Source: Ectobacillus panaciterrae DSM 19096 (GTDB lineage Bacteria; Bacillota; Bacilli; Bacillales; Bacillaceae_G). From it: a stretch of 64,000 nucleotides of DNA. Location of the stretch: assembly GCF_000430785.1 (NCBI RefSeq), contig NZ_AUMR01000003.1, forward strand, positions 124,001 through 188,000, written 5' to 3'. The first letter of the stretch is position 1. Each line of letters begins with the position of its first letter. The notes below the pieces were generated by a model, which saw only the letters and a list, made by a program, of their open reading frames with translations, searched no databases and was not told where the DNA came from. Both the position numbers and the translations under genes were made by a program. Below are positions 4,236 to 62,857 of the stretch, in pieces.

Positions 4236-5566
4236 AAAAAAACGTGCGCGAGCTTGCGCTGGAAGGTTTGCTGCAGGTCGAAAAAAACGGCGCCTACAGC
4301 AACCTTCTGTTAAACAGCCTCATTGAAAAGAACAAGCTGGAAGGAAAAGATACGGGTTTGTTGACTGAAATCGTATATGGCACAATCCAAAGACGGGATA
4401 TACTCGATTTTTATTTGCAGCCATTTTTACGCAAAAAGGTTGAACCGTGGGTAAGAGTCCTGCTCCGGCTGTCCTTGTACCAAATGGTATTTTTAGACCG
4501 TGTGCCGGCGCATGCCGCTATTTATGAAGCGGTGGAGATTGCAAAAAAGCGGGGGCATAAAGGCATCAGCTCTCTTGTCAATGGAGTGCTTCGTTCTATT
4601 CAGCGCCAAGGCGTGCCGTCACTCGATGAAATCAAAAATCCGGCGAAACGTCTTGCCATTGAAACAAGCCATCCCGAGTGGCTTGTAGAAGAATGGATCC
4701 GGGCATATGATCTTGAAACGGCGAGAAAGATGTGTGAAGTCAACTTGCTTCCTCCTGTTCCGACAGCGCGGGTCAATGCTGATAAAACAACAGTAGAAGA
4801 TGTTTTGGACATGCTAAACCATGAAGGAATTGAGGCCAAAAAAGGCGATCTTTCAGAGGATGCGGTACAAATTAAACAAGGCAATGCTGCACATACGCGA
4901 GCATTTCGGGAAGGTTTTTTATCTATTCAGGATGAAAGCTCTATGCTTGTAGCGCGCGCCCTCGGTCCTGAAGAAGGAGATACCGTTCTTGACAGCTGTG
5001 CTGCCCCGGGTGGAAAAACATCTCATATCGCAGAGCGTCTGCATGGGAGCGGCAAAGTTATTTCTCTTGATCTGCACCAGCACAAGGTACGCTTAATTCA
5101 AGAACAGGTAAAGCGCCTGGATCTCCATAATGTAGAAGCAAAAGCGCTCGATGCGAGAAAAGCGAGAGAGCATTTCGAAGACGAAACGTTTGATAAAATT
5201 TTAGTGGATGCTCCGTGCTCAGGCTTTGGCGTTATTCGTAGAAAGCCGGACATCAAGCTTGGGAAAAGTGCGGCTGACAGTGAAAAGCTGTCTCATATTC
5301 AGCTTGCAATTTTAGAGGAAACCGCTCCTCTTTTGAAAAAGGGTGGGCGTCTCGTATACAGTACGTGTACGATTGAACAAGCGGAAAACGAAAAGGTTGT
5401 TCATGCCTTTTTACAGTCTCATCCCGAGTTCGAATGGGATCTGTCTGTAAAGGACCGGCTGCCGAAAGTACTCGAACCGTATGTGGAAAAAGGAGAGGTG
5501 CAAATTTTGCCGCACTACTTTTTAACAGACGGATTTTATATTGCGTGTTTACGAAAGAAGGTATAA
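4232..5566 (+). CDS. rsmB: 16S rRNA (cytosine-967-C5)-methyltransferase RsmB
   Basis: SAM-dependent m5C methyltransferase of the small-subunit rRNA. The N-terminal NusB-like RNA-binding domain (about residues 1-140) precedes a Rossmann methyltransferase domain. The SAM motif I is [17 protein letters not shown] near residue 250; motif [20 protein letters not shown] and motif [15 protein letters not shown] carry the two catalytic cysteines of RNA m5C methyltransferases. The length of 444 is normal. The ATG overlaps the fmt stop by 4 nt. The last bases of the gene contain the Shine-Dalgarno for rlmN. Confidence 0.95.
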
Positions 5567-5570
5567 CATC

Positions 5571-6659
5571 ATGGAAACAACGATTAAACAAGAACAGTCT
5601 AAGGCTGAAACGAGAAAGCCATCCATTTATTCACTTGAACTTCATGATTTGCAAGCGTGGGTGAAGGAACAAGGAGAGCCGGCGTTTCGCGCAGGCCAAA
5701 TTTATGATTGGCTCTATAAAAAACGCGTCGCTTCTTTTGAAGAAATGACGAACCTTTCTAAAGGATTGCGGGAAAAATTGTCGAATTCCTTTGACATTAC
5801 CACGTTAAAAACACTTGTAAAGCAAGTTTCTTCCGATGGTACAATCAAATTTTTATTCGAATTGTATGACGGATACTCTATTGAAACAGTTTTGATGCGC
5901 CATGAATACGGAAACTCTGTCTGTGTTACAACACAAGTTGGCTGCCGGATCGGTTGTACATTCTGCGCTTCTACGCTTGGCGGATTAAAGCGTAATCTTG
6001 AAGCCGGAGAAATTGTGGCCCAAGTTGTAGAAGTACAGCGCGCTATTGATGAGGCAGAAGATCGTGTCAGCTCTGTTGTTGTAATGGGAATCGGCGAGCC
6101 GTTTGACAATTACGACAATCTTATGGCCTTTTTGCGCATTATAAACCACGATAAGGGCATTCATATCGGCGCACGCCACATTACTGTATCTACGAGCGGC
6201 ATCATTCCGAAAATTTATAAGTTTGCAGATGAAAATATCCAGATTAATTTTGCAATTTCCCTGCACGCGCCAAATACGGAATTGCGTTCAAAGCTTATGC
6301 CGATTAACCGTGCGTATAAGCTGCCGGATTTAATTGAATCTGTAAAATATTACACTGAAAAAACAGGGCGCCGTGTAACGTTCGAATACGGATTGTTTGG
6401 CGGGGAGAATGACCAAGTTGAGCATGCTGAGGAATTGGCGCAGCTTCTCAAAGGGTTAAAGTGTCATGTGAATTTGATTCCGGTTAACTATGTGCCGGAA
6501 CGCAATTATGTCAGAACACCGCGCGAGCAAATTTTCAGCTTCGAAAAAATTTTAAAGAACCACGGCATCAACGTAACGATTCGTCGCGAACAAGGTCATG
6601 ATATCGACGCGGCCTGCGGTCAATTACGTGCAAAGGAGCGCAAAGAAGAGACGAGGTGA
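5571..6659 (+). CDS. rlmN: Dual-specificity RNA methyltransferase RlmN (radical SAM)
   Basis: Radical-SAM enzyme making m2A at 23S rRNA A2503 and in some tRNAs. The [4Fe-4S] motif C-x3-C-x2-C is visible as CRIGCTFC near residues 124-131. [11 protein letters not shown] is the SAM-binding GGEP-type loop, and the C-terminal [22 protein letters not shown] carries the conserved catalytic cysteine. I chose the ATG at 5571 (362 residues), which has SD AAGAAGG inside the end of rsmB; an upstream in-frame start would overlap rsmB without an SD. Four bases separate it from the rsmB stop and prpC follows after 4 nt. Confidence 0.94.
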
Positions 6660-6663
6660 AACT

Positions 6664-7428
6664 ATGAAAACTGTTTTTCTGTCTGACAGGGGAAAAGTTC
6701 GTCAGCATAACGAAGACAGCGCCGGCGTATTTCAGAATTTAGACGGAGCTATTTTGGCAATTGTGGCAGATGGAATGGGAGGTCACCGGGCCGGCGATGT
6801 TGCCAGCTCGATGACCATCCAATTGTTTCATGATTATTGGAAGCAAACCTATAACATGGATACACCGAAAAAAGCGGAGCAATGGCTTCGCGGTCACGTT
6901 GAGATCATTAATGAACGTGTATACAAGTATGCGTTGGAAAACAAAGAGTGCCAAGGAATGGGTACAACAATTGTCGTTGCAATTTGCACAAAGCAATTTG
7001 CGACGATCGGTCATATCGGAGACAGCCGCTGTTATATGATATCAGAAGGTAATATGTCTCTTGTGACAGAGGATCATTCGCTTGTCAACGAGCTTGTGCG
7101 TCACGGAGAAATCTCAAAAGAAGACGCCGAATATCACCCTCGTAAGCATGTGCTGCTTCGCGCTCTTGGAACGGAACAGCAAGTAACGCTTGATGTGAAA
7201 ACTTTGGTTATAGAGCAAGGGGACCAATTGCTTTTATGCTCTGACGGATTGTCTAATAAAGTTTCTGTTGAGGAAATGGAAAGTATGTTGCAAACGGACG
7301 CAACGCTTGAAAAAAAGGGCGAACAGCTCATTGAGAGGGCAAACGACATGGGCGGAGAAGATAATATTACGCTTGTTCTAGTTGATTATATCGATTCAGC
7401 CAATGAAAGTGGGTGCGCACAGACGTGA
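6664..7428 (+). CDS. prpC: PP2C-family Ser/Thr protein phosphatase (PrpC/Stp)
   Basis: Mn-dependent cytosolic phosphatase that reverses phosphorylation by the neighbouring kinase PrkC. All PP2C metal-binding motifs are visible: [13 protein letters not shown] near the N-terminus, VADGMGGH near residue 36, GHIGDSR near residue 118, SDGLSN near residue 193, and GGEDNITLV at the C-terminus. At 254 residues it is a bare catalytic domain, as in B. subtilis. The ATG at 6664 follows SD GAGGTGA; a longer upstream frame overlaps rlmN and lacks support. Its TGA overlaps the prkC ATG (TGATG), so kinase and phosphatase are translated as a coupled pair. Confidence 0.95.
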
Positions 7429-9410
7429 TGATTGGAAAGCGCCTGAATGACCGCTATAAGCTGTTAAAGATGATTGGCGGCGGCGGAATGGCCAATGTTT
7501 ACTTAGCTCACGATGGTATTTTGGATCGGGATGTGGCCGTGAAAATACTCCGGCTGGATTATGCAAATAATGAAGAGTTTATTAAGCGTTTTCACCGTGA
7601 AGCACAATCTGTCACTACGCTGTCTCATTCGAATATAGTCAATATTTATGATGTCGGGGAAGAGGACGGAATTTACTATCTTGTCATGGAATATGTACCC
7701 GGACAAACATTAAAGCAATACATACAGCAAAAGGGGATGCTCCCTGTTTCCGAAGCGCTTGATATTATGGAACAGCTCACCTCCGCGATGGCGCACGCGC
7801 ATCATTTTGAAATTGTGCACAGGGATATTAAGCCGCAAAACATCTTGGTTCGCGATGACGACCATGTGGTGAAGGTTACAGACTTCGGCATTGCTACAGC
7901 AACAACCGCTACAACCATTACGCATACAAATTCTGTGCTTGGATCTGTTCATTATTTGTCTCCTGAACAAGCGCGCGGCGGCGTAGCCAATAAGCAATCA
8001 GATATATATTCTCTCGGCATTGTGATGTTTGAGCTGCTGACGGGAAGACCTCCGTTTTCTGGAGAGTCTGCTGTTTCTATCGCTTTAAAGCATTTGCAGA
8101 ATGAAACACCGTCTCCGAAGCGCTGGAATCCGGATATTCCGCAAAGTGTGGAAAACATCATTTTAAAGGCAACTGCAAAGGATCCGTTCCATCGCTATCA
8201 ATCAGTCGATGAAATGAAGATGGATCTTATGACCGCGCTATATCCCGAGCGGGCAAACGAGCAGCGCTTCATTATTCCTGAGGATGAGGACGCGACAAAA
8301 GTGATACCGGTTATTCGCGAAGATGCTTTTCAGGAAAGCGGGATTGAAGAAACCATTATTAATACAGGAAAAATAGAATTAGAGACAGAACAGCCGATTA
8401 AACAGGAAAAGAAACAAGAGAAGACACAAGAGAAGAAACCGAAAAGCAAGTTTATGAGAAGCATGTTCATTGTCTTATTTCTTCTCATTCTTGGCGGAAT
8501 CGCTGCTGTAACCGTTGTGCCGGGCTTTTTCATTCCAAAGGATGTAAAAATACCGGACGTATCGGGCAAAACATACGCAGATGCCGTCAGTGTTTTAATT
8601 AATAAAGGATTCGAAGTCGCCTCTTCTCCTGAAATAGTGTATACGGATAAGACGGAAGAAGGCAAAGTAATTAAAACAAACCCGGAAGCGGGAAGAGTTG
8701 TTAAAGAAAATACAAAGATTACTATTTTCCAATCCGGCGGCAAAAAGAAGACAAAAATGAAGAATTATGTAGGTGAATCGTACGACAGTGTAGAAGCGGA
8801 GCTTAAGGAGCGCTACAAAGATGTCGTTAATTACTCGAGTGAAAGTGACAAACCCAAAGGGGAAATCATCGATCAATTGCCGAAAGCTGGGGAATCCGTT
8901 GTGGAGGATGAAACCGATGTACGCGTGTGGGTAAGCTCCGGTCCGAAGCGCTTTTCTTTAAACGATATGACAGGATGGACGGAAAACGACGTAAGAAGTT
9001 ATGCGGAGGAGAGAAAATTCGGAGTGGACGTGAATCAGGATTATTCTGATACGGTGGAAAAAGGTAAAGTCATATATCATGTACCTAAACCCGGAGCTCT
9101 TTTGAAAGAGGGGGATAAAGTCACGGTTGTCATATCGAAGGGATCGAAGGAGAAGCCGCCTAAAACAGTATCGGCTGACAATATCCAGGTTCCTTATGAG
9201 CCGGCGACACCAGGTCAGCCGCAAACGATAGAAATTTATAAGGAAGATATGGAGAATACTATGGCAAAGCCGGTTGAAACGAGAACAATCACGGCACCGG
9301 CCACCCTTTCCATCAAGCTTATCATCCCATACGGAAAAACGGCGCGCTATAAGATTGTGCGCGACGGCAAAACCTTCATAGAAAAAGAAGTGCCGTATCC
9401 GTACGATTGA
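7428..9410 (+). CDS. prkC: Ser/Thr protein kinase PrkC with PASTA repeats
   Basis: Membrane kinase that senses muropeptides or peptidoglycan and phosphorylates targets in germination and cell-wall control. Visible parts, in order: glycine-rich loop GGGGMANVY near residue 18, VAVKIL Lys, catalytic loop HRDIKPQN near residues 130-137, DFGIA, activation segment with Thr-rich TATTATTIT, and SPEQARG. An acidic/Lys-rich linker leads to a single membrane helix near residues 345-368 ([15 protein letters not shown]). Outside are three PASTA repeats (roughly 370-580) and an Ig-like tail. The start is taken at the ATG at 7428 by homology to MxIGKR starts; GTG codons at 7413 and 7425 are alternatives. 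The 660-residue length fits Bacillus PrkC. Confidence 0.94.
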
Positions 9411-9430
9411 GATTAACAAGGAGTGAGTAT

Positions 9431-10312
9431 ATGCCAGAAGGCAAAATCATTAAAGCGTTGAGCGGCTTTTATTATGTAGCGCACGAAGGAGGCGTAACGC
9501 AATGCCGTGGACGCGGTGTGTTTCGCAAAAATAAAATTACGCCTCTCGTGGGCGACTACGCTGTGTTTCAAGCGGATAATGAAAGCGAAGGCTATATTTT
9601 AGAGATAGGGGAGAGAAAGAATGAGCTTGTTCGTCCTCCTATCGCAAATGTGGATCAGGCCATTCTTGTTTTTTCGGCGGTAGAGCCGGATTTCAGCACG
9701 CTTTTGCTGGATCGCTTTTTAGTGCTGATCGAGTTTAATCATATTGAACCGATTATTTGTATCAGCAAAATTGACTTAGCAGATGAACGAACGCTGCAAG
9801 AAATTAAGCAATATGCTGCCGACTATCGAAACATGGGGTATGAGGTTTTATTTACTTCTACAGCGATTGAGGACAGCATCGACCGATTGCGTCCGCTCCT
9901 GCAGAATAAAGTATCTGTAGTAGCAGGCCAATCAGGAGTCGGCAAGTCTTCTCTTTTAAATATTCTTCGTCCGGAGCTGGAGCTGAAAACGAGCGGTATT
10001 TCCTCTCATTTGGGACGCGGCAAGCATACAACGCGGCACGTGGAACTGATTGAAGTGGGAACAGGTCTTGTTGCCGATACACCGGGTTTTAGCTCTTTAG
10101 ATTTCATCGATATTGAAGTAGAAGATTTGACCGATTGCTTCCCGGAGTTTAAATCGCGTAAGCAGTCCTGTAAATTCAGGGGATGTACGCATCTCTCCGA
10201 ACCGAAGTGCGCTGTTAAGGAAGCGGTTGAGGATGGAACTATTCCTCGTTACCGGTACGAGCATTATGTACAATTTGTTCAGGAAATAAGAGATAGAAAG
10301 CCGAGGTATTAA
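9431..10312 (+). CDS. rsgA: Ribosome small subunit-dependent GTPase RsgA
   Basis: Circularly permuted GTPase (YloQ/RsgA, CpgA) that checks late assembly of the 30S subunit. An N-terminal OB fold is followed by the G4 motif SKIDL near residue 117, which comes before G1 [12 protein letters not shown] near residue 169 and G3 DTPGFS near residue 217; this order shows the permutation. The C-terminal zinc module has [17 protein letters not shown]. The ATG at 9431 follows SD AAGGAGTGAG; starting at the in-frame ATG 24 nt upstream would bypass that SD. Length 293. It follows prkC, a kinase reported to phosphorylate this GTPase in B. subtilis, and precedes rpe by 2 nt. Confidence 0.95.
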
Positions 10313-31639: not shown

Positions 31640-31715
31640 ACTTATATAGTCCGTTTAACCACGATGTTCCGCTGCAGCGTAAGACTGGTAAGAGCATCCG
31701 TTTGGAAGGAGAGAA
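31640..31715 (+). ncRNA. Probable L19 leader (ribosomal protein autoregulatory RNA)
   Basis: The 160-nt gap before rplS holds a GC-rich conserved-looking segment: ACGATGTTCCGCTGCAGCG, then AAGACTGGTAAGAGCATCCGT, in which GATG can pair with CATC to close a stem just before the SD. Firmicutes carry an L19 leader family at this position. I recognise the position and the GATGTTCCGCTG / AGAGCATCCG words from memory only; borders are approximate. Confidence 0.55.
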
Positions 31716-55520: not shown

Positions 55521-58500
55521 ATGGCGCCGTTAACACAGGAACAAAAAGAGCGATTCGGCATTTTGCTTGAGCAGCTTGCGCTTCCGGAAGCTTTCATAAA
55601 CAGCTATCTCCAAAACGGAGGGATTCAAAAGCTGCTTGTAGATAAGCGGAATAAAGGCTGGTGTTTTCATTTTGCTTTGCCGCGCTTGCTGCCGGCAAAT
55701 GTGTACGAGCTGCTGGAGAGCCAGCTGGATAAAACATTTTCGCATATTGCCAATGTTTCCTTTGTTCTCGATATAGATGATAAACAATTTACAGAACAAG
55801 ACGTCCAAACATACTGGCCTCTTTGTACAAAAAAGCTTTCTTTTTCTCCTATGTTTTCTTATTTAAAGGAACAAGCTCCTCAAGTAAATGGGGTAAAGCT
55901 TCTTCTTACCGTCAAAAATGAGCTGGAGTCTGTAACAGTGAAGAAAAACATGACAAAGCCGATCAGCGATCAATATGAAATATTTGGCTTTCCGCGTTTT
56001 CACGTAGACACCAAAGTTACGAATAACGATGAGGAAATTCAAAAGTTCAGAGAGCAAACGGAACAAGAGGATCGTGAAAAGGTGCTGCAAGCCATGGAGG
56101 AAATGGCGAAGAAGGAGCAGGAGGAAGCAATTCCTGACGATCAGCCGCTTGTAATCGGGTATCTCATTAAAGCTGATGAGGAAATTACACCGCTTCGCGA
56201 AATTCAAGAAGAAGAAAAACGGAAAACAATACAAGGATATGTATTTGATGTTGAAACGAAAGAGCTTCGCAGCGGACGTACTCTTTTAACATTTAAGGTT
56301 ACAGACTACACGGACTCCATTATGGTCAAAATGTTTTCACGGGATAAAGAAGATATTCCTGCATTTAATAAAATCAAAAAAGGAATGTGGGTCAAAGCGC
56401 GCGGCTCCTTCCAAAACGACACATTTGTGCGCGATTTGATTATGATGGCAAACGACGTGAATGAATTGAAAGCACCGTCCCGCTCGGATAAGGCTTCCGA
56501 AGGAGAAAAGCGCGTAGAGCTCCATCTTCATACGCCGATGAGCCAAATGGATGCCGTTACGCCCGTATCTAAACTTGTGGCACAAGCGAAAAAGTGGGGG
56601 CATGAAGCGATTGCGGTAACAGACCACGCAGTAGCGCAATCTTTCCCTGAGGCATATTCCGCTGGCAAAAAAAATGGAATTAAAATCATTTACGGCGTAG
56701 AGGCAAATCTTGTAAACGATGGCGTTCCAATTGCCTATAATGAATCGCATCGTTTGCTTGCAGAGGAAACGTACGTTGTTTTTGACGTGGAGACGACAGG
56801 CTTATCTGCTGTATACGATACCATTATTGAGCTTGCAGCGGTAAAAATTCATAACGGTGAGATTATAGACCGCTTTGAACGCTTTGCAAATCCGCATCAT
56901 CCGCTTTCAGCCACGACCATCGAGCTGACGGGCATCACAGATGATATGGTGAAGAACGCACCTGATGTGGATGTCGTGTTAAAAGAGTTTGCCGAGTGGA
57001 TGGGCGATTGCACATTGGTTGCTCACAATGCATCGTTTGATATGGGATTCCTTAACGTAGGATTCAAGAAATACGGATTGCCAAAGACGACAAATCCAGT
57101 CATTGATACACTGGAGCTCGCGCGTTTCTTGCTTCCTGATATGAAAAATCACCGGTTGAACACGCTTTGTAAGAAGTTTGATATTGAGCTTGTCCAGCAT
57201 CACCGAGCCATTTACGATGCAGAAGCGACAGGATATTTGCTTGCCAAAATGCTGAAGGACGTCATCGCAAAAGGCATGGAGTATCACGATCAGTTGAATG
57301 ACAGCATGGGACAAGGGGATTCTTACAAACGCGGGCGTCCAAGTCACGTGACTTTGCTTGCAACTTCTGAAGAAGGTTTGAAAAACCTGTATAAGCTCGT
57401 TTCGCTGTCACATCTGCAGTATTATTATCGCGTACCGCGTATTCCGCGATCTGTTTTGAAAAAGTACCGTGCAGGATTACTAATCGGAACAGCTTGTGAT
57501 AAAGGTGAAGTATTTGAGGCCATGATGCAGAAAGCACCGGAAGAGGTAGAGGAACTCGCACAGTTCTACGATTATATCGAGGTCATGCCGCCGGCTGTAT
57601 TAAAGCATTTAATTGAACTTGAGCTTGTGCAAAACGAAGGACAGCTCAAAACTATTATTACAAACCTTGTAAATCTCGGAAAAACACTGGATAAACCGGT
57701 TGTGGCAACAGGAAATGTTCATTATTTGGATCCGGAAGATGCCATTTACCGAAAAATTTTAATTAGCTCGCAGGGCGGAGCGAATCCGCTGAACCGTCAC
57801 AAGCTGCCCCCCGTATATTTCCGTACGACTGATGAAATGCTGGAGGAGTTTGCGTTTTTAGGGGAAGAAACGGCAAAAGAAATCGTCGTGATGAATACGC
57901 AGAAAGTGGCAGCCATGATTGGCGAGGTAAAGCCGGTCAAGGACGATTTGTATACACCTCGCATTGAAGGCGCGGACGAGGAAACGCGTGAAATGAGCTA
58001 CGCACGTGCGCGCAGCATATACGGCGATGCTCTTCCGGAGATTGTAGAGGCTCGTCTTGAAAAAGAATTGAAAAGCATTATCGGACATGGGTTTGCAGTT
58101 ATTTATCTGATTTCGCATAAGCTCGTGAAAAAATCGCTGGATGATGGGTATCTGGTCGGCTCGCGCGGTTCCGTAGGATCTTCATTTGTAGCGACCATGA
58201 TGGAAATTACGGAAGTAAATCCGCTGCCGCCGCATTATATTTGTCCGAACTGTAAGCATTCGCAATTCTTTAATGACGGTTCCGTAGGATCAGGATTTGA
58301 CTTGCCGGATAAGGACTGTCCAAATTGCGGCATGAGATATAAAAAAGACGGGCACGATATTCCGTTTGAAACGTTCCTTGGATTTAAAGGGGACAAGGTA
58401 CCGGATATTGATTTGAATTTCTCCGGTGAATATCAGCCGCGCGCCCATAATTATACGAAGGTGCTGTTTGGCGAAGATAATGTGTATCGTGCCGGAACAA

Positions 58501-59307
58501 TCGGCACTGTTGCGGACAAAACAGCTTTTGGATATGTAAAAGGATATACATCCGATCATAACTTAACAGTACGCGGCGCTGAAATCGAGCGCTTGGCAAT
58601 GGGATGTACGGGTGTAAAACGGACAACCGGTCAGCATCCGGGCGGCATTATAGTAGTACCTGATTATATGGACGTGTTTGACTTTACGCCGATTCAGTTC
58701 CCTGCAGACGATACGTCTGCGGAATGGAAAACAACACACTTTGATTTCCACTCCATTCACGATAATTTACTGAAGCTTGATATACTAGGGCACGATGATC
58801 CGACGGTTATTCGTATGCTGCAAGATTTAAGCGGCATTGATCCGAAAACTATTCCAACGGACGATCCTGAGGTTATGAAGATTTTCTCTGGTACGGAATC
58901 ACTAGGTGTTACATCTGAACAAATCAATTGTAAAACAGGCACGCTTGGAATTCCTGAATTCGGTACGAAATTCGTGCGTCAGATGCTTGAAGAAACAAAG
59001 CCGACAACCTTCTCAGAGCTCGTACAAATCTCCGGTCTGTCACACGGAACGGATGTATGGCTCGGCAATGCCAATGAGCTAATCTACAGCGGTACATGTA
59101 CGCTGAGCGATGTAATCGGCTGTCGCGATGACATTATGGTGTACTTGATTTATCAAGGGCTGGAGCCTTCTTTAGCCTTTAAAATCATGGAATCCGTTCG
59201 TAAAGGAAAAGGTGTGCCGCCGGAATGGGAAGAGGAAATGAGAAATAACAATGTGCCAAACTGGTATATTGATTCTTGCAAGAAAATCAAATATATGTTC
59301 CCGAAAG
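55521..59307 (+). CDS. polC: DNA polymerase III alpha subunit PolC, exon 1 (residues 1-1262)
   Basis: Essential replicative polymerase of Firmicutes. This exon carries the N-terminal domain, the OB fold (about 240-320), PHP domain ([12 protein letters not shown] near 335), the DEDD proofreading exonuclease ([21 protein letters not shown] near 420), a zinc module (CPNCKHSQ ... CPNCGMRY near 910-935) and the palm with PDIDLNFSG near 960 and HPGGIIVVP. The frame would continue 14 codons into the intron and stop at 59351. True exon 1 ends at G 59307, after the first base of the Ala codon in FPKA. Joined to 62112-62626 the product is 1433 residues, normal for PolC. Confidence 0.95.
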
Positions 59308-59657
59308 GTGCGACACGTTGCTGGTTTAACCCCAACAGAAATGTTGGATAAAGACTAGCCTGTGTGGATACTAAGACAGTAAATCTACATGAGAACTATA
59401 TGGAATGAGTCGGAGGCGTGAAATCCCCTCCTACCGTAACAGGATACGGTGAACCCCCCTGAGCACCGCGACTTGCAGGAAGTGTCTCCTAACATGAACT
59501 GTAAGAGAGCTCGCTAAGGTTCGTCTTAAAAGCGTGACACGTAGACGTGAGTAAAGGCGGGGGTCCCGAAAAGTGACTATGGTGAGGCAACGAATCCTCG
59601 TATGGAAAGGCTCGTTAGGACAACCCAGTTGAGAGACTGGGGCTATCGCTTGCGATG

Positions 59658-59685
59658 GAACATTTGCGGATTACCTATCTTTTGG
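59658..59685 (+). other. Intron exon-binding sites EBS2 and EBS1
   Basis: EBS1 CTTTTGG (59679-59685) lies in the loop of a hairpin closed by GCGGATT and AATATCTGC, and pairs over 7 nt with IBS1 CCGAAAG (59301-59307, one G-U). EBS2 GAACAT (59658-59663) pairs perfectly with IBS2 ATGTTC (59295-59300). IBS2 and IBS1 are the final 13 nt of exon 1. EBS2 lies only 15 nt before EBS1, closer than I would expect, so it is the less certain of the two. Confidence 0.75.
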
Positions 59686-60054
59686 GGGAATATCTGCGCT
59701 CAACCATAAAAGGTTGTTCAGCTTAATCAATAAATTCCTGTTAGATTAAGCTAAATGTCGGGTCAGAGAGGACACCTAAGGTCACCACTAAAGAAGGGAT
59801 AATTTCATGTGGAACGTGTGAAGGGTGTAGGATGGATGGTAGGAGCCAAGTGAAATCCCTGAGAGTAGGAAATGACTCTCTTAATACACCTGGCGGCAGC
59901 CCGTAGTAGTGTTGAAGCTTCTGTAATGGAAGTGGAGCGAAGGGGCATAGTCGGACTTACGAAAAGGAGCAACCAACATTCACTAACTGCTAAGAGATTC
60001 CGTTGAGAGTAAAGTACCGAGATGCAAGTATCCTTGTGAAAGGGGCGAGCATCT

Positions 60055-61995
60055 ATAAAACTTAGCATACCGAAATCGGAAGAGGATTTTCAAACTCTCA
60101 GAGATACAATCTACGCGGTAACGAAAGCCGCAATCGCTGAGAAAAAGCAACCTAAGTTCCAAGGAATTATTGAAGTAGCCAGAAGTGAAGTTGTAGTTTT
60201 AACTGCGATTCATAAACTCAAAGGTAATAAAGGCAGTGAAACATCTGGTGTTGATGGACAAACGATGAGAATCAACATTCTCCAAAAGGATTTCAAAGAA
60301 GTCCTTGAACGAGTCCAAAAGAGTTTTGATAACTATCAACCTGAAATGGTAAGGCGTGTGCATATTCCAAAAGACAATGGTGAAACAAGACCACTTGGCA
60401 TTCCCGCAATTGTAGATAGAATTGTTCAGGAATGTGTTCGCTTGAGTATCGAACCCATATGCGAGGCTCATTTCTTTGAGCATTCATATGGATTCAGACC
60501 TTGGAGAAGCACTGAAAATGCCTTAGCCAGACTCGGTTTCCTTGCCCATAAAACAGGTCATCACTGGGTAATTGAAGGTGATATATCAAAATTCTTCGAC
60601 AACGTAAATCACAACAAACTGCTGAAAATACTTTGGGGTTTCGGTGTTACCGATAAACGAGTTCTAATGATGATACAAGCAATGTTAAAAGCGGGAATAA
60701 TGGAAGAGATTACGAAGAACGAATTGGGTACTCCCCAAGGAGGAATTATTTCGCCTCTTTTGGCAAATGTCTATCTCACCCCTTTTGACAACTTTGTTAC
60801 TAGAGAATATGAGAAGAAAGTTCTCAGGAAAAATTACAGCTCTGGTCAAAGAAGCTTAGTATTAAGAGGATTATCTGGAAAGCCGCGCCTAAAGCTAAAG
60901 GCTGCATATCTTGTAAGATATGCAGATGACTGGGTTGTGCTGACTAACACTAAGGAAAATGCAGAAAACCTCGTTTACAGGTATGAAAAATACTTGCGGG
61001 AAGAGTTGAAACTAACATTATCCTTAGAAAAGACAAAGATAACCGACATTAGGACGACACCAGTCAGTTTTCTTGGTTACAAATATAAACTTGTGAGAGG
61101 AAATGCAGAAAAAGGATACATTACTAGGTCGAAGCCGAATGAGGAAAAGCTGACTAAGAAGGTTGCGCAGCTTCTTAGGGACATCAAGCTCCTCAAAAAG
61201 TGTAAAGACATAGAAACCTTAATCAGTGACATCAATTTCATTAACTCTAAAATAAGAGGACTGGTTAACTACTACCAAGTTACCACATGGGGCTCGGAAG
61301 TTTTTAAACAGTACAATTATCGAGTTAGATGGGCGGCATATCGAGCAATAAGACGGAGGTTAGGTGCTAAAAGTGCAAAAGGCAAGAATAAAGTCGTTGA
61401 CTGGGTTCCTGCTAACAAATGCACGAATCTAACAGAACTTCATTCAAAGTACAATACTGCCTTACCTGCCGTTAAGTATAAAGACCACATTATTGGTGTC
61501 ACAGACCTTGCATTCATCAAACGAGTAGACCCTTCATTGTTCAATCAAGAGGAAACTCCTTTTACCAAAAAGGGGAGAGAGTTACATCTCAAAAGAACAA
61601 GGAAAAAACCAAGATTGTATAGACTTGATTGGATATTCGGAGCAGACGCGATGGCTACGAAAAGACTCCTTGGGAATAGAAACAAAAGTAAGCGTAGTAG
61701 GAAACTTTACAACTTTGAATTTTTCCTTAACAGGGCTTACGCATTTAATCGTGATAAAGGTAAGTGCAGGATATACGGGGAAGATATAGCCCCTCATGAG
61801 ATTGAGACACACCACGAAAATCCTGAATTGCCTTCTGAACAGGTTAACAGGGTAAGTAATCTTGTGTCACTACATGATAAATGCCATAACGACCTGCACA
61901 ATTTCACATTAGATGAAATAAAGCTTCTTAACTTAGGTTATAAACAAAAACAAATCAAAAAGATACTTTCATTTCGGGAAAAATTAGTGAATTAA
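60055..61995 (+). CDS. Group II intron-encoded reverse transcriptase/maturase with HNH domain
   Basis: Splices the intron and mobilises it. The frame is open from just after a TGA at 60037. The RT0 segment HKLKGNKGSETSGVDGQT is encoded before the first ATG (60265), so a start at that ATG would lose 70 conserved residues. The natural N-terminus is [M]KLSIPKSEED at ATA 60055, 9 nt after SD AAGGGG; no ATG, GTG or TTG exists between. RT motifs follow: GIPAIVDRIVQ, GTPQGGIISPLLANVYL, catalytic YADD at about 289-292, then maturase X and a C-terminal HNH (C571, H586-H587, C610-H611). The second Cys of the first CxxC is Tyr574. 646 residues. Confidence 0.93.
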   Translation: MKLSIPKSEEDFQTLRDTIYAVTKAAIAEKKQPKFQGIIEVARSEVVVLTAIHKLKGNKGSETSGVDGQTMRINILQKDFKEVLERVQKSFDNYQPEMVRRVHIPKDNGETRPLGIPAIVDRIVQECVRLSIEPICEAHFFEHSYGFRPWRSTENALARLGFLAHKTGHHWVIEGDISKFFDNVNHNKLLKILWGFGVTDKRVLMMIQAMLKAGIMEEITKNELGTPQGGIISPLLANVYLTPFDNFVTREYEKKVLRKNYSSGQRSLVLRGLSGKPRLKLKAAYLVRYADDWVVLTNTKENAENLVYRYEKYLREELKLTLSLEKTKITDIRTTPVSFLGYKYKLVRGNAEKGYITRSKPNEEKLTKKVAQLLRDIKLLKKCKDIETLISDINFINSKIRGLVNYYQVTTWGSEVFKQYNYRVRWAAYRAIRRRLGAKSAKGKNKVVDWVPANKCTNLTELHSKYNTALPAVKYKDHIIGVTDLAFIKRVDPSLFNQEETPFTKKGRELHLKRTRKKPRLYRLDWIFGADAMATKRLLGNRNKSKRSRKLYNFEFFLNRAYAFNRDKGKCRIYGEDIAPHEIETHHENPELPSEQVNRVSNLVSLHDKCHNDLHNFTLDEIKLLNLGYKQKQIKKILSFREKLVN

Positions 61996-62017
61996 TCTAT
62001 GGTTGTTGTTCGATGGA

Positions 62018-62111
62018 ACGCCGTATGAATCGAAAGGTTCACGTACGGTGTGAAGCGGGGGAAAATTGAACCCAAACAGGTAAGGCTGAGGGGAATATTA
62101 CCTATCGCTAC
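62018..62111 (+). other. Group II intron domains V and VI
   Basis: Domain V is 62018-62051: 34 nt, lower stem with the catalytic CGC triad (62019-62021), two-nt bulge CG (62042-62043), upper stem TGAATC/GGTTCA and GAAA tetraloop. Domain VI follows: AGCG (62054-62057) pairs with CGCT (62106-62109), and GGGG with T, TCC leaving A62104 bulged 8 nt from the 3' end, the expected branch-point. The 3' splice site is after C62111. Confidence 0.9.
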
Positions 62112-62626
62112 CCCATGCCGCTGCTTATGTATTAATGGCGGTGCGGATTGCTTATTTCAAAGTGCATTTCTCCCTCCTTTATTATGCAGCGTATTTTACA
62201 GTGCGCGCAGACGATTTCGATGTAGATGCGATGACGAAAGGCTCAACGGCCATTCGCGCCAAAATTGATGAAATTGTCCAAAAGGGACTTGATGCGTCGC
62301 CGAAGGAGAAGAACTTGCTGACGGTGCTGGAAATGGCGCTGGAGATGTGCGAACGCGGCTTCTCCTTTAAGAAAGTGGATTTGTACCGCTCGAGCGCCAC
62401 AGATTTCATCATTGACGGCGATACGCTCATTCCGCCGTTTAATGCAATTGACGGACTTGGCACTAACGCTGCCTTAAACATAGTAAAAGCAAGAGAAGAC
62501 GGCGAGTTCCTTTCAAAAGAGGATTTGCAGCAGCGGGCAAAAATTTCTAAATCTGTCGTGGCATACTTGGACAGCCAAGGCTGTTTAGAATCTCTGCCAG
62601 ACCAAAACCAGCTCTCCTTGTTTTAG
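62112..62626 (+). CDS. polC: DNA polymerase III alpha subunit PolC, exon 2 (residues 1263-1433)
   Basis: Begins with the last two bases of the Ala codon, then [19 protein letters not shown], the region shared by all C-family polymerases, and continues through DDFDVDAM and [17 protein letters not shown] (a helix-hairpin-helix-like segment) to the stop at 62626. 171 residues. Without splicing this part could only be made by internal initiation, and PolC would lose conserved structure needed for DNA binding. No frameshift or stop is seen within it. Confidence 0.95.
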
Positions 62627-62670: not shown

Positions 62671-62727
62671 AGCGGGTTAATCATGTCATGTATATTTTGA
62701 AAAAAGAGTGGGGAAACCCGCTCTTTC
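62671..62727 (+). promoter_or_regulatory. Terminator 1 with possible antiterminator in rimP leader
   Basis: AAAGAGTGGG (62704-62713) pairs with CCCGCTCTTT (62718-62727) around a GAAA loop, a terminator-like hairpin with a weak U-tract. AGCGGGTT (62671-62678) is exactly complementary to AACCCGCT (62716-62723), the descending arm, and so could act as an antiterminator. It may simply be the polC terminator; the complementarity makes attenuation a fair hypothesis. Confidence 0.5.
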
Positions 62728-62832
62728 GTGTTATTATCCCTCAATTTGGGTATAAGAGCCGAACGCTCGCTTGATATACATAATTTACTACAAGTGTTAC
62801 TGCTTGAAATCGGTAATACTAAAACAAACTTT

Positions 62833-62857
62833 CCCTGCTTTTAAGCAGGGGCTTTTG
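62833..62857 (+). terminator. Terminator 2 in rimP-nusA leader
   Basis: CCCTGC (62833-62838) pairs with GCAGGG (62845-62850), loop TTTTAA, followed by GCTTTTGTT. It lies about 20 nt before the rimP SD, so rimP-nusA transcripts must read through it. In B. subtilis NusA limits its own operon through a NusA-stimulated terminator at this location, as I recall; this hairpin is the natural counterpart. Confidence 0.7.

Follow-up and report, generated by a model that had tools for sequence, protein, structure and literature searches.

Adamidi reportedly described in 2003 a group II intron located in the heat-shock operon of a bacterium (cited in PMC4424553). A group II intron is also said to lie in groEL of Azotobacter. 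The heat-shock operon intron resembles the one analysed here as a group II intron tied to a housekeeping operon, and differs in organism and gene. Housekeeping genes are stated to contain bacterial group II introns "virtually never" (PMC3522654) or "seldom" (PMC6003770). The second source suggests an explanation, namely that spliced mRNA is reopened by introns that have been excised. An exception named as active is the recA intron of Geobacillus kaustophilus (Chee and Takami 2005, named in PMC3522654 and also cited in PMC4424553), and some group II introns are described as settled in bacterial housekeeping genes, particularly in cyanobacteria, with ORF loss being common in organelles (PMC4424553). 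A 2009 survey of cox1 and a few further host proteins reported that group II introns show no preference for conserved sites (p = 0.49), whereas inteins and group I introns do; intein loss, according to the same source, must be exact (PMC2814812).

The intron described here interrupts polC in a 64,000-nucleotide stretch (the window) of Ectobacillus panaciterrae DSM 19096. Among the titles and abstract openings listed from the open-licence literature, none describes a group II intron in polC. The available part of PMC3919608 records that fragmented C-family sequences were mended before analysis, and the word "intron" appears 0 times in its main text, as also in PMC12926913. Like the recA intron, which is described as active (PMC3522654), the polC intron lies in an essential gene of the Bacillota, but the gene is another one, and in polC a site-specific lineage is found in four species alongside a second lineage. 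With organellar group II introns it shares residence in housekeeping genes and ORF loss with retention of the ribozyme (PMC4424553), but the polC introns are on a bacterial chromosome. Inteins such as the cyanobacterial split DnaE intein likewise occupy a conserved replication-protein motif and must be lost exactly; since the C-extein of the Ssp DnaE split intein starts CFNK (PMC2664965), which aligns with MFPK, the polC intron site is placed by this alignment 13 nt downstream of the intein site. The DnaE intein, however, acts by protein splicing in DnaE and the polC case concerns RNA splicing in PolC; the likeness is one of life history only. The intron element itself is ordinary; what surprises is the gene that hosts it, the constancy with which it occupies a single conserved site, and a second lineage that behaves alike. 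These introns directly test both literature statements, as residents of an essential gene that would need ribozyme splicing, and intact, maturase-less and empty polC alleles are available in different species, including the culture-collection strain Priestia flexa NBRC 15715.

The sequences are best read as showing a group II intron that splices and whose homing target is a conserved motif of the polymerase, a strategy resembling that of inteins and one which the 2009 survey (PMC2814812) did not find among group II introns. With a probability of roughly 0.9, a group II intron belonging to an RT/maturase/HNH lineage inserted into polC by retrohoming, directly behind the codons MFPK plus G, entering an empty allele on arrival from another species, is spliced in vivo, and now persists while decaying. 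The pre-mRNA would be spliced with the aid of the intron's own maturase to yield full-length PolC, and the intron would persist, because only a precise loss keeps the polymerase functional, as it decays toward a splicing-only form; P. flexa, with the reading frame gone and the ribozyme left, may represent that decayed state. The features of the locus are as follows.

55521..59307, plus strand: polC exon 1, residues 1-1262 and the first base of codon 1263; Pfam PolC domains; frame joins exon 2
59295..59307, plus strand: IBS2/IBS1, 13 nt ATGTTCCCGAAAG, covering codons MFPK plus G; predicted pairing partner of the intron guides
59308..62111, plus strand: group II intron, 2804 nt; RF00029; boundaries common to three other species
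59657..59663, plus strand: predicted EBS2 (GGAACAT), the same in three of four same-site introns, altered in Anoxybacillus
59679..59685, plus strand: predicted EBS1 (CTTTTGG), the same in four of four same-site introns
60040..61995, plus strand: intron-encoded protein (IEP), 651-codon open frame with RT, maturase and weak HNH endonuclease
61774..61776, plus strand: Tyr codon at the second position of the HNH-domain CxxC motif
62018..62051, plus strand: domain V, 34-nt hairpin (RF00029, fold)
62054..62109, plus strand: domain VI with bulged branch-point A at 62104 (RF00029, fold)
62112..62626, plus strand: polC exon 2, last 171 residues, ending QLSLF; Pfam HHH_6; constrained

The intron begins GTGCGAC and ends CTAC, in agreement with the group II 5' GUGYG and 3' AY termini, and positions 62016-62111 score 54.7 bits against RF00029, the Rfam model of group II domains V-VI, for which the gathering score is 40. 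The first-pass annotation had proposed a 34-nt domain V and a domain VI with a bulged A; the covariance match agrees, with the hairpin at 62018-62051 and the A at 62104, placed by the fold 8 nt from the intron 3' end. Its splice boundaries, 59307/59308 and 62111/62112, proved exact to the base, and the same junctions are seen in three other assemblies. Removal of the 2804 nt on paper joins the exons into the 1433-residue PolC that had been predicted, with FPKAHAAAY (in full, MFPKAHAAAY) intact. Left unspliced, the frame meets a stop 14 codons past the junction, giving a 1276-aa product, so that the last 171 residues would be lost, as had also been claimed; with this stop 14 codons into the intron, the insertion is not an in-frame protein insertion of the intein kind.

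The source genome (G000) is a 5.41-Mb assembly in 189 contigs, rated 100% complete. Its estimated contamination of 4.03% is compatible with an assembly or contamination artefact, to which we give a negligible chance: the contig that contains the intron is at least 188 kb long and extends beyond it on both sides, no other full-length copy of it is present in the assembly (two short, distant matches lie on contig C32), and the junctions recur in three independently assembled species, which disfavours the artefact that the first-pass annotation had listed as a possible refutation. A search of the same 189 contigs with the DNA_pol3_alpha profile, following the suggestion that a second intact polC be sought, found no second PolC; the sole other match is a separate 1134-codon frame with motifs read as DnaE, and the homologous segment of the host DnaE reads YGFNRSHAAAY.

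The case had been handled as isolated, but it is one of four found at the same polC nucleotide, and a second polC site carries another lineage. Six exact IEP peptides scanned against genome_contigs (84,980 species), a search that reaches close relatives only, gave three confirmed loci, all in polC. Full introns at the same nucleotide are present in Bacillus sp. FJAT-42315 and an Anoxybacillus MAG, and P. flexa NBRC 15715 has there a 1080-nt ORF-deleted intron, as well as a distantly related group II intron earlier in polC. At this locus (L017) the earlier intron occupies 5168-7835 at PDIDL/N (the slash marking the junction) with an open IEP frame, and the ORF-less intron occupies 8727-9806 at MFPK/A, the FPK site. 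The 5' 780 nt of the host intron are 95.6% identical to those of P. flexa, 93.0% to FJAT-42315 and 84.3% to Anoxybacillus, and the corresponding values for the last 1500 nt of exon 1 are 76.4 and 75.6% (two pieces), 77.4% and 77.7%; between host and FJAT, dS is 0.47 for the RT and 3.15, near saturation, for exon 1. Because intron 5' identity is far above exon 1 identity, the intron would have moved horizontally into empty alleles, and the same-site spread that defines a mobile intron is in this way indicated indirectly. Within the host genus, genomes G001-G003 are without the insertion pattern, and polC of G001 and G003 lies in one frame.

The closest other RTs are distant. At least 5000 plasmid records match, all below 60% identity, and the 15 of them listed reach 46.5%; identity reaches 50% among the matches listed in the order sample, a search (E limit 1e-150, at most three candidates scored per genome) that could miss nearer RTs. 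Candidate vehicles were rejected in each case: plasmids at this 46.5%, phages with at most 39.4% identity among the 15 listed of 49 records, and viral contigs with 0 of 8 candidate stretches confirmed in viral_contigs. As a separate observation, a related intron on the Metabacillus plasmid pB218 (L094) is flanked by two CDS that carry the same annotation, DUF6094, which gives the impression that it splits that gene.

A PolC match was found in 396 of the 397 genomes of the order, and 16 genomes were re-examined, comprising all 13 with a best E-value above 1e-288 and three others. polC is split at PDIDL/N in 8/397 (G014, G047, G197, G230, G310, G348, G357 and G388; six families, seven genera) and at MFPK/A in 2/397 (G000 and G230), which are also the only two of the 397 with the junction pattern; in the other seven re-examined genomes polC is uninterrupted, and splits near the query ends would escape this screen. 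Nine genomes of the order carry 10 polC introns, G230 (P. flexa) carrying both. The PDIDL introns are 1291-2674 nt long, start GTGCG and end AT. By sequence they also cross families, and the 5' parts of the P. flexa and G197 introns are 97% identical. In an RT tree of 19 rows, the RTs of the PDIDL introns (four rows) and those of the FPK introns (three rows) group apart, in clades both supported at 100/100; this tree includes three of the 15 listed plasmid matches and one of the other introns of the genome, and is without the broken or absent IEPs L024, L025, L026, L027 and L017_FPK and without L097 (no frame >300 aa).

For PolC residues 201-900, best E-values among the matches listed give no interruption in 297 of 299 genomes, in a screen where an interruption within about 80 residues of the segment ends would not show; of the other two, G219 (80% complete) yields hardly any match and the match of G222 (62% complete) is weaker. 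As a control, a 566-residue part of DnaE with both homologous motifs matched 298 of the 299 genomes, and no kilobase-scale DnaE interruption was found as far as scored, 11 low or missing scorers having been re-examined and others such as G246, G256, G277 and G297 left out. In the same draw PolC is interrupted in five genomes (G000, G014, G047, G197 and G230), four of the nine polC-interrupted genomes falling outside it, and with just five such genomes the contrast between PolC and DnaE is suggestive, not strong. Among individual DnaE results, G191 (98% complete) gave no match even at 1e-5, the matches of G137 and G163 are broken in two inside one open frame, and that of G050 is in three overlapping pieces, as from frameshifts.

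The putative guides of the host intron, EBS2 and EBS1, are predicted to pair along the whole 13-nt stretch that precedes the insertion, including one G-U, with base 59301, which can pair with only one guide, counted with both. When the guides are fixed, full pairing is found at a single position on both strands of the 64-kb window, 59307, the insertion site. If any 7+7 pairing at a spacing of 10-40 nt is allowed, the spliced coding sequence has 89 qualifying positions out of 4284, and the real pairing score is reached at two of the 4284, the real site included. EBS2 pairing is incomplete in the Anoxybacillus same-site intron. For the PDIDL introns, EBS1 could not be fixed, the candidates lying at different places in different introns. 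Among 51 empty FPK sites, hand-picked from listed, mostly better-scoring matches, 42 pair fully with the real guides and 36 show full IBS1 pairing with the strict complement, which lends modest support to FPK guides tuned to synonymous codons; the target sequences named for the question of synonymous-codon tolerance at this site are ATGTTYCCNAARG.

Conservation was compared across the final 533 codons of 52 sequences, namely 51 intact ones and that of the host after splicing on paper. No 14-nt window (-13/+1) is as conserved as the FPK site (1 of 1549, itself), and the PDIDL site ranks within the top 3.4% (52 of 1549); when the nucleotide windows are widened, the two sites fall in the top 0.4% and 8.4%, respectively. 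The PDIDL motif is one that we take to hold catalytic aspartates of PolC. Protein conservation at both sites is high but not unique, 40 (FPK) and 58 (PDIDL) of 521 windows of ±6 residues scoring as high or higher. We consider it somewhat probable that two distantly related intron lineages took up an intein-like life in polC, each locked to one motif and spreading across families via empty alleles, the FPK lineage tolerating some synonymous codons by G-U pairing, and that both were then trapped as splicing-only introns since only exact loss is viable. If so, chromosome replication in these bacteria would depend on a ribozyme.

The IEP frame of the host scores 324.4 bits with TIGR04416 (cut-off 300), as an RT/maturase, with the GIIM maturase domain at 20.4 (below the Pfam cut-off of 23) and HNH at 14.4, compared with 17.8 in L015 and 21.2 in L016 (cut-off 21.4). 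Its first ATG is at 60265, and no ATG, GTG or TTG precedes it (window 60040-60264). An ATA or ATC is found near the expected N-terminus in the host, L015, L016 and L017; farther upstream, L016 also contains a TTG in frame, and the related IEPs L098, L100 and L101 are also without an early ATG. The position of the host Tyr in the HNH CxxC motif is Cys in 8 of the 12 other rows shown (L015, L016, three plasmid RTs, L096, L103 and L081) and Thr or Ser in the remaining four, rows without the domain not being counted. Since these four are the PDIDL RTs shown, the Tyr may not be disabling, and reduced mobility of the host copy is only possible. The missing early start codon, the GIIM score below cut-off, the Tyr and the incomplete EBS2 pairing of the Anoxybacillus copy nevertheless count against the favoured reading. 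The RT/maturase stays constrained by the measure of dN/dS, 0.08 between host and FJAT. The IEP is broken in 5/12 polC introns, being wholly or mostly deleted in L017_FPK and L026, frameshifted in L024 and L027 and interrupted by a stop in L025; sequencing errors could explain some of the frameshifts.

Removal on paper of any of the 12 polC introns examined (4 FPK, 8 PDIDL; 11 genomes) leaves PolC in an open frame, with partial flank only for L024, L025 and L027 and a contig-cut gene for L016, and all 12 score above gathering with RF00029. The ribozyme is kept where the ORF is lost, in P. flexa and G047, and this combination is the pattern expected of trapped splicing-only introns in an essential gene. 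It bears on a split polymerase made without splicing, in which the 1276-aa product would cooperate with a C-terminal piece made by translation of its own (62135-62626, 163 aa counted from the ATG). Such an ATG-started ORF is present in exon 2, but it would be without AHAAAYVL, the cut falling inside a near-invariant motif, and cooperation of two pieces leaves unexplained both the retained ribozymes of P. flexa and G047 and the frame preserved in 12/12 introns at two sites; we regard it as very unlikely.

The distance of exon 2 to 47 outgroups is 0.210 in the host, 0.211 and 0.211 in two intact genus-mates, and 0.192 and 0.187 in two more distant intact family members, the lower values of which indicate that exon 2 is somewhat faster in the host genus with or without the intron. 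The host constraint alone is weak evidence, because the insertion may be too recent for decay. It nevertheless counts against a dead insertion, with polC inactive and replication carried out by DnaE or an unassembled polC, as do the single PolC of a genome rated 100% complete, the frame kept by 12 introns in 11 genomes, and the essentiality of PolC in B. subtilis as stated in the available part of PMC12926913. The 189-contig state of the assembly speaks for it, and we hold it to be extremely unlikely. The intron very probably splices, by these sequence measures, in an essential replicative polymerase gene for which no second copy was found in the assembly, and the cell probably must cut it from RNA to copy its DNA. 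The dependence of replication on ribozyme splicing, as we infer it, is supported by exon 2 constraint, by domains V-VI and frame in 12/12 introns, and by maturase-less introns that keep the ribozyme. We know of no host splicing factor for the polC introns.

Several minor elements were also observed. Seven further group II domain V-VI matches above cut-off lie on contigs C24, C6, C32, C150, C113 and C39 (two) of the source genome, with one below cut-off on C1, and some of these matches sit near contig ends. Between polC and the next gene are two terminator-like hairpins (window 62703-62726 and 62832-62851), a type no commoner in the scanned stretch than in shuffled sequence. A ribosomal protein L19 leader (RF00556, 42.2 bits) lies at window 31661-31700.
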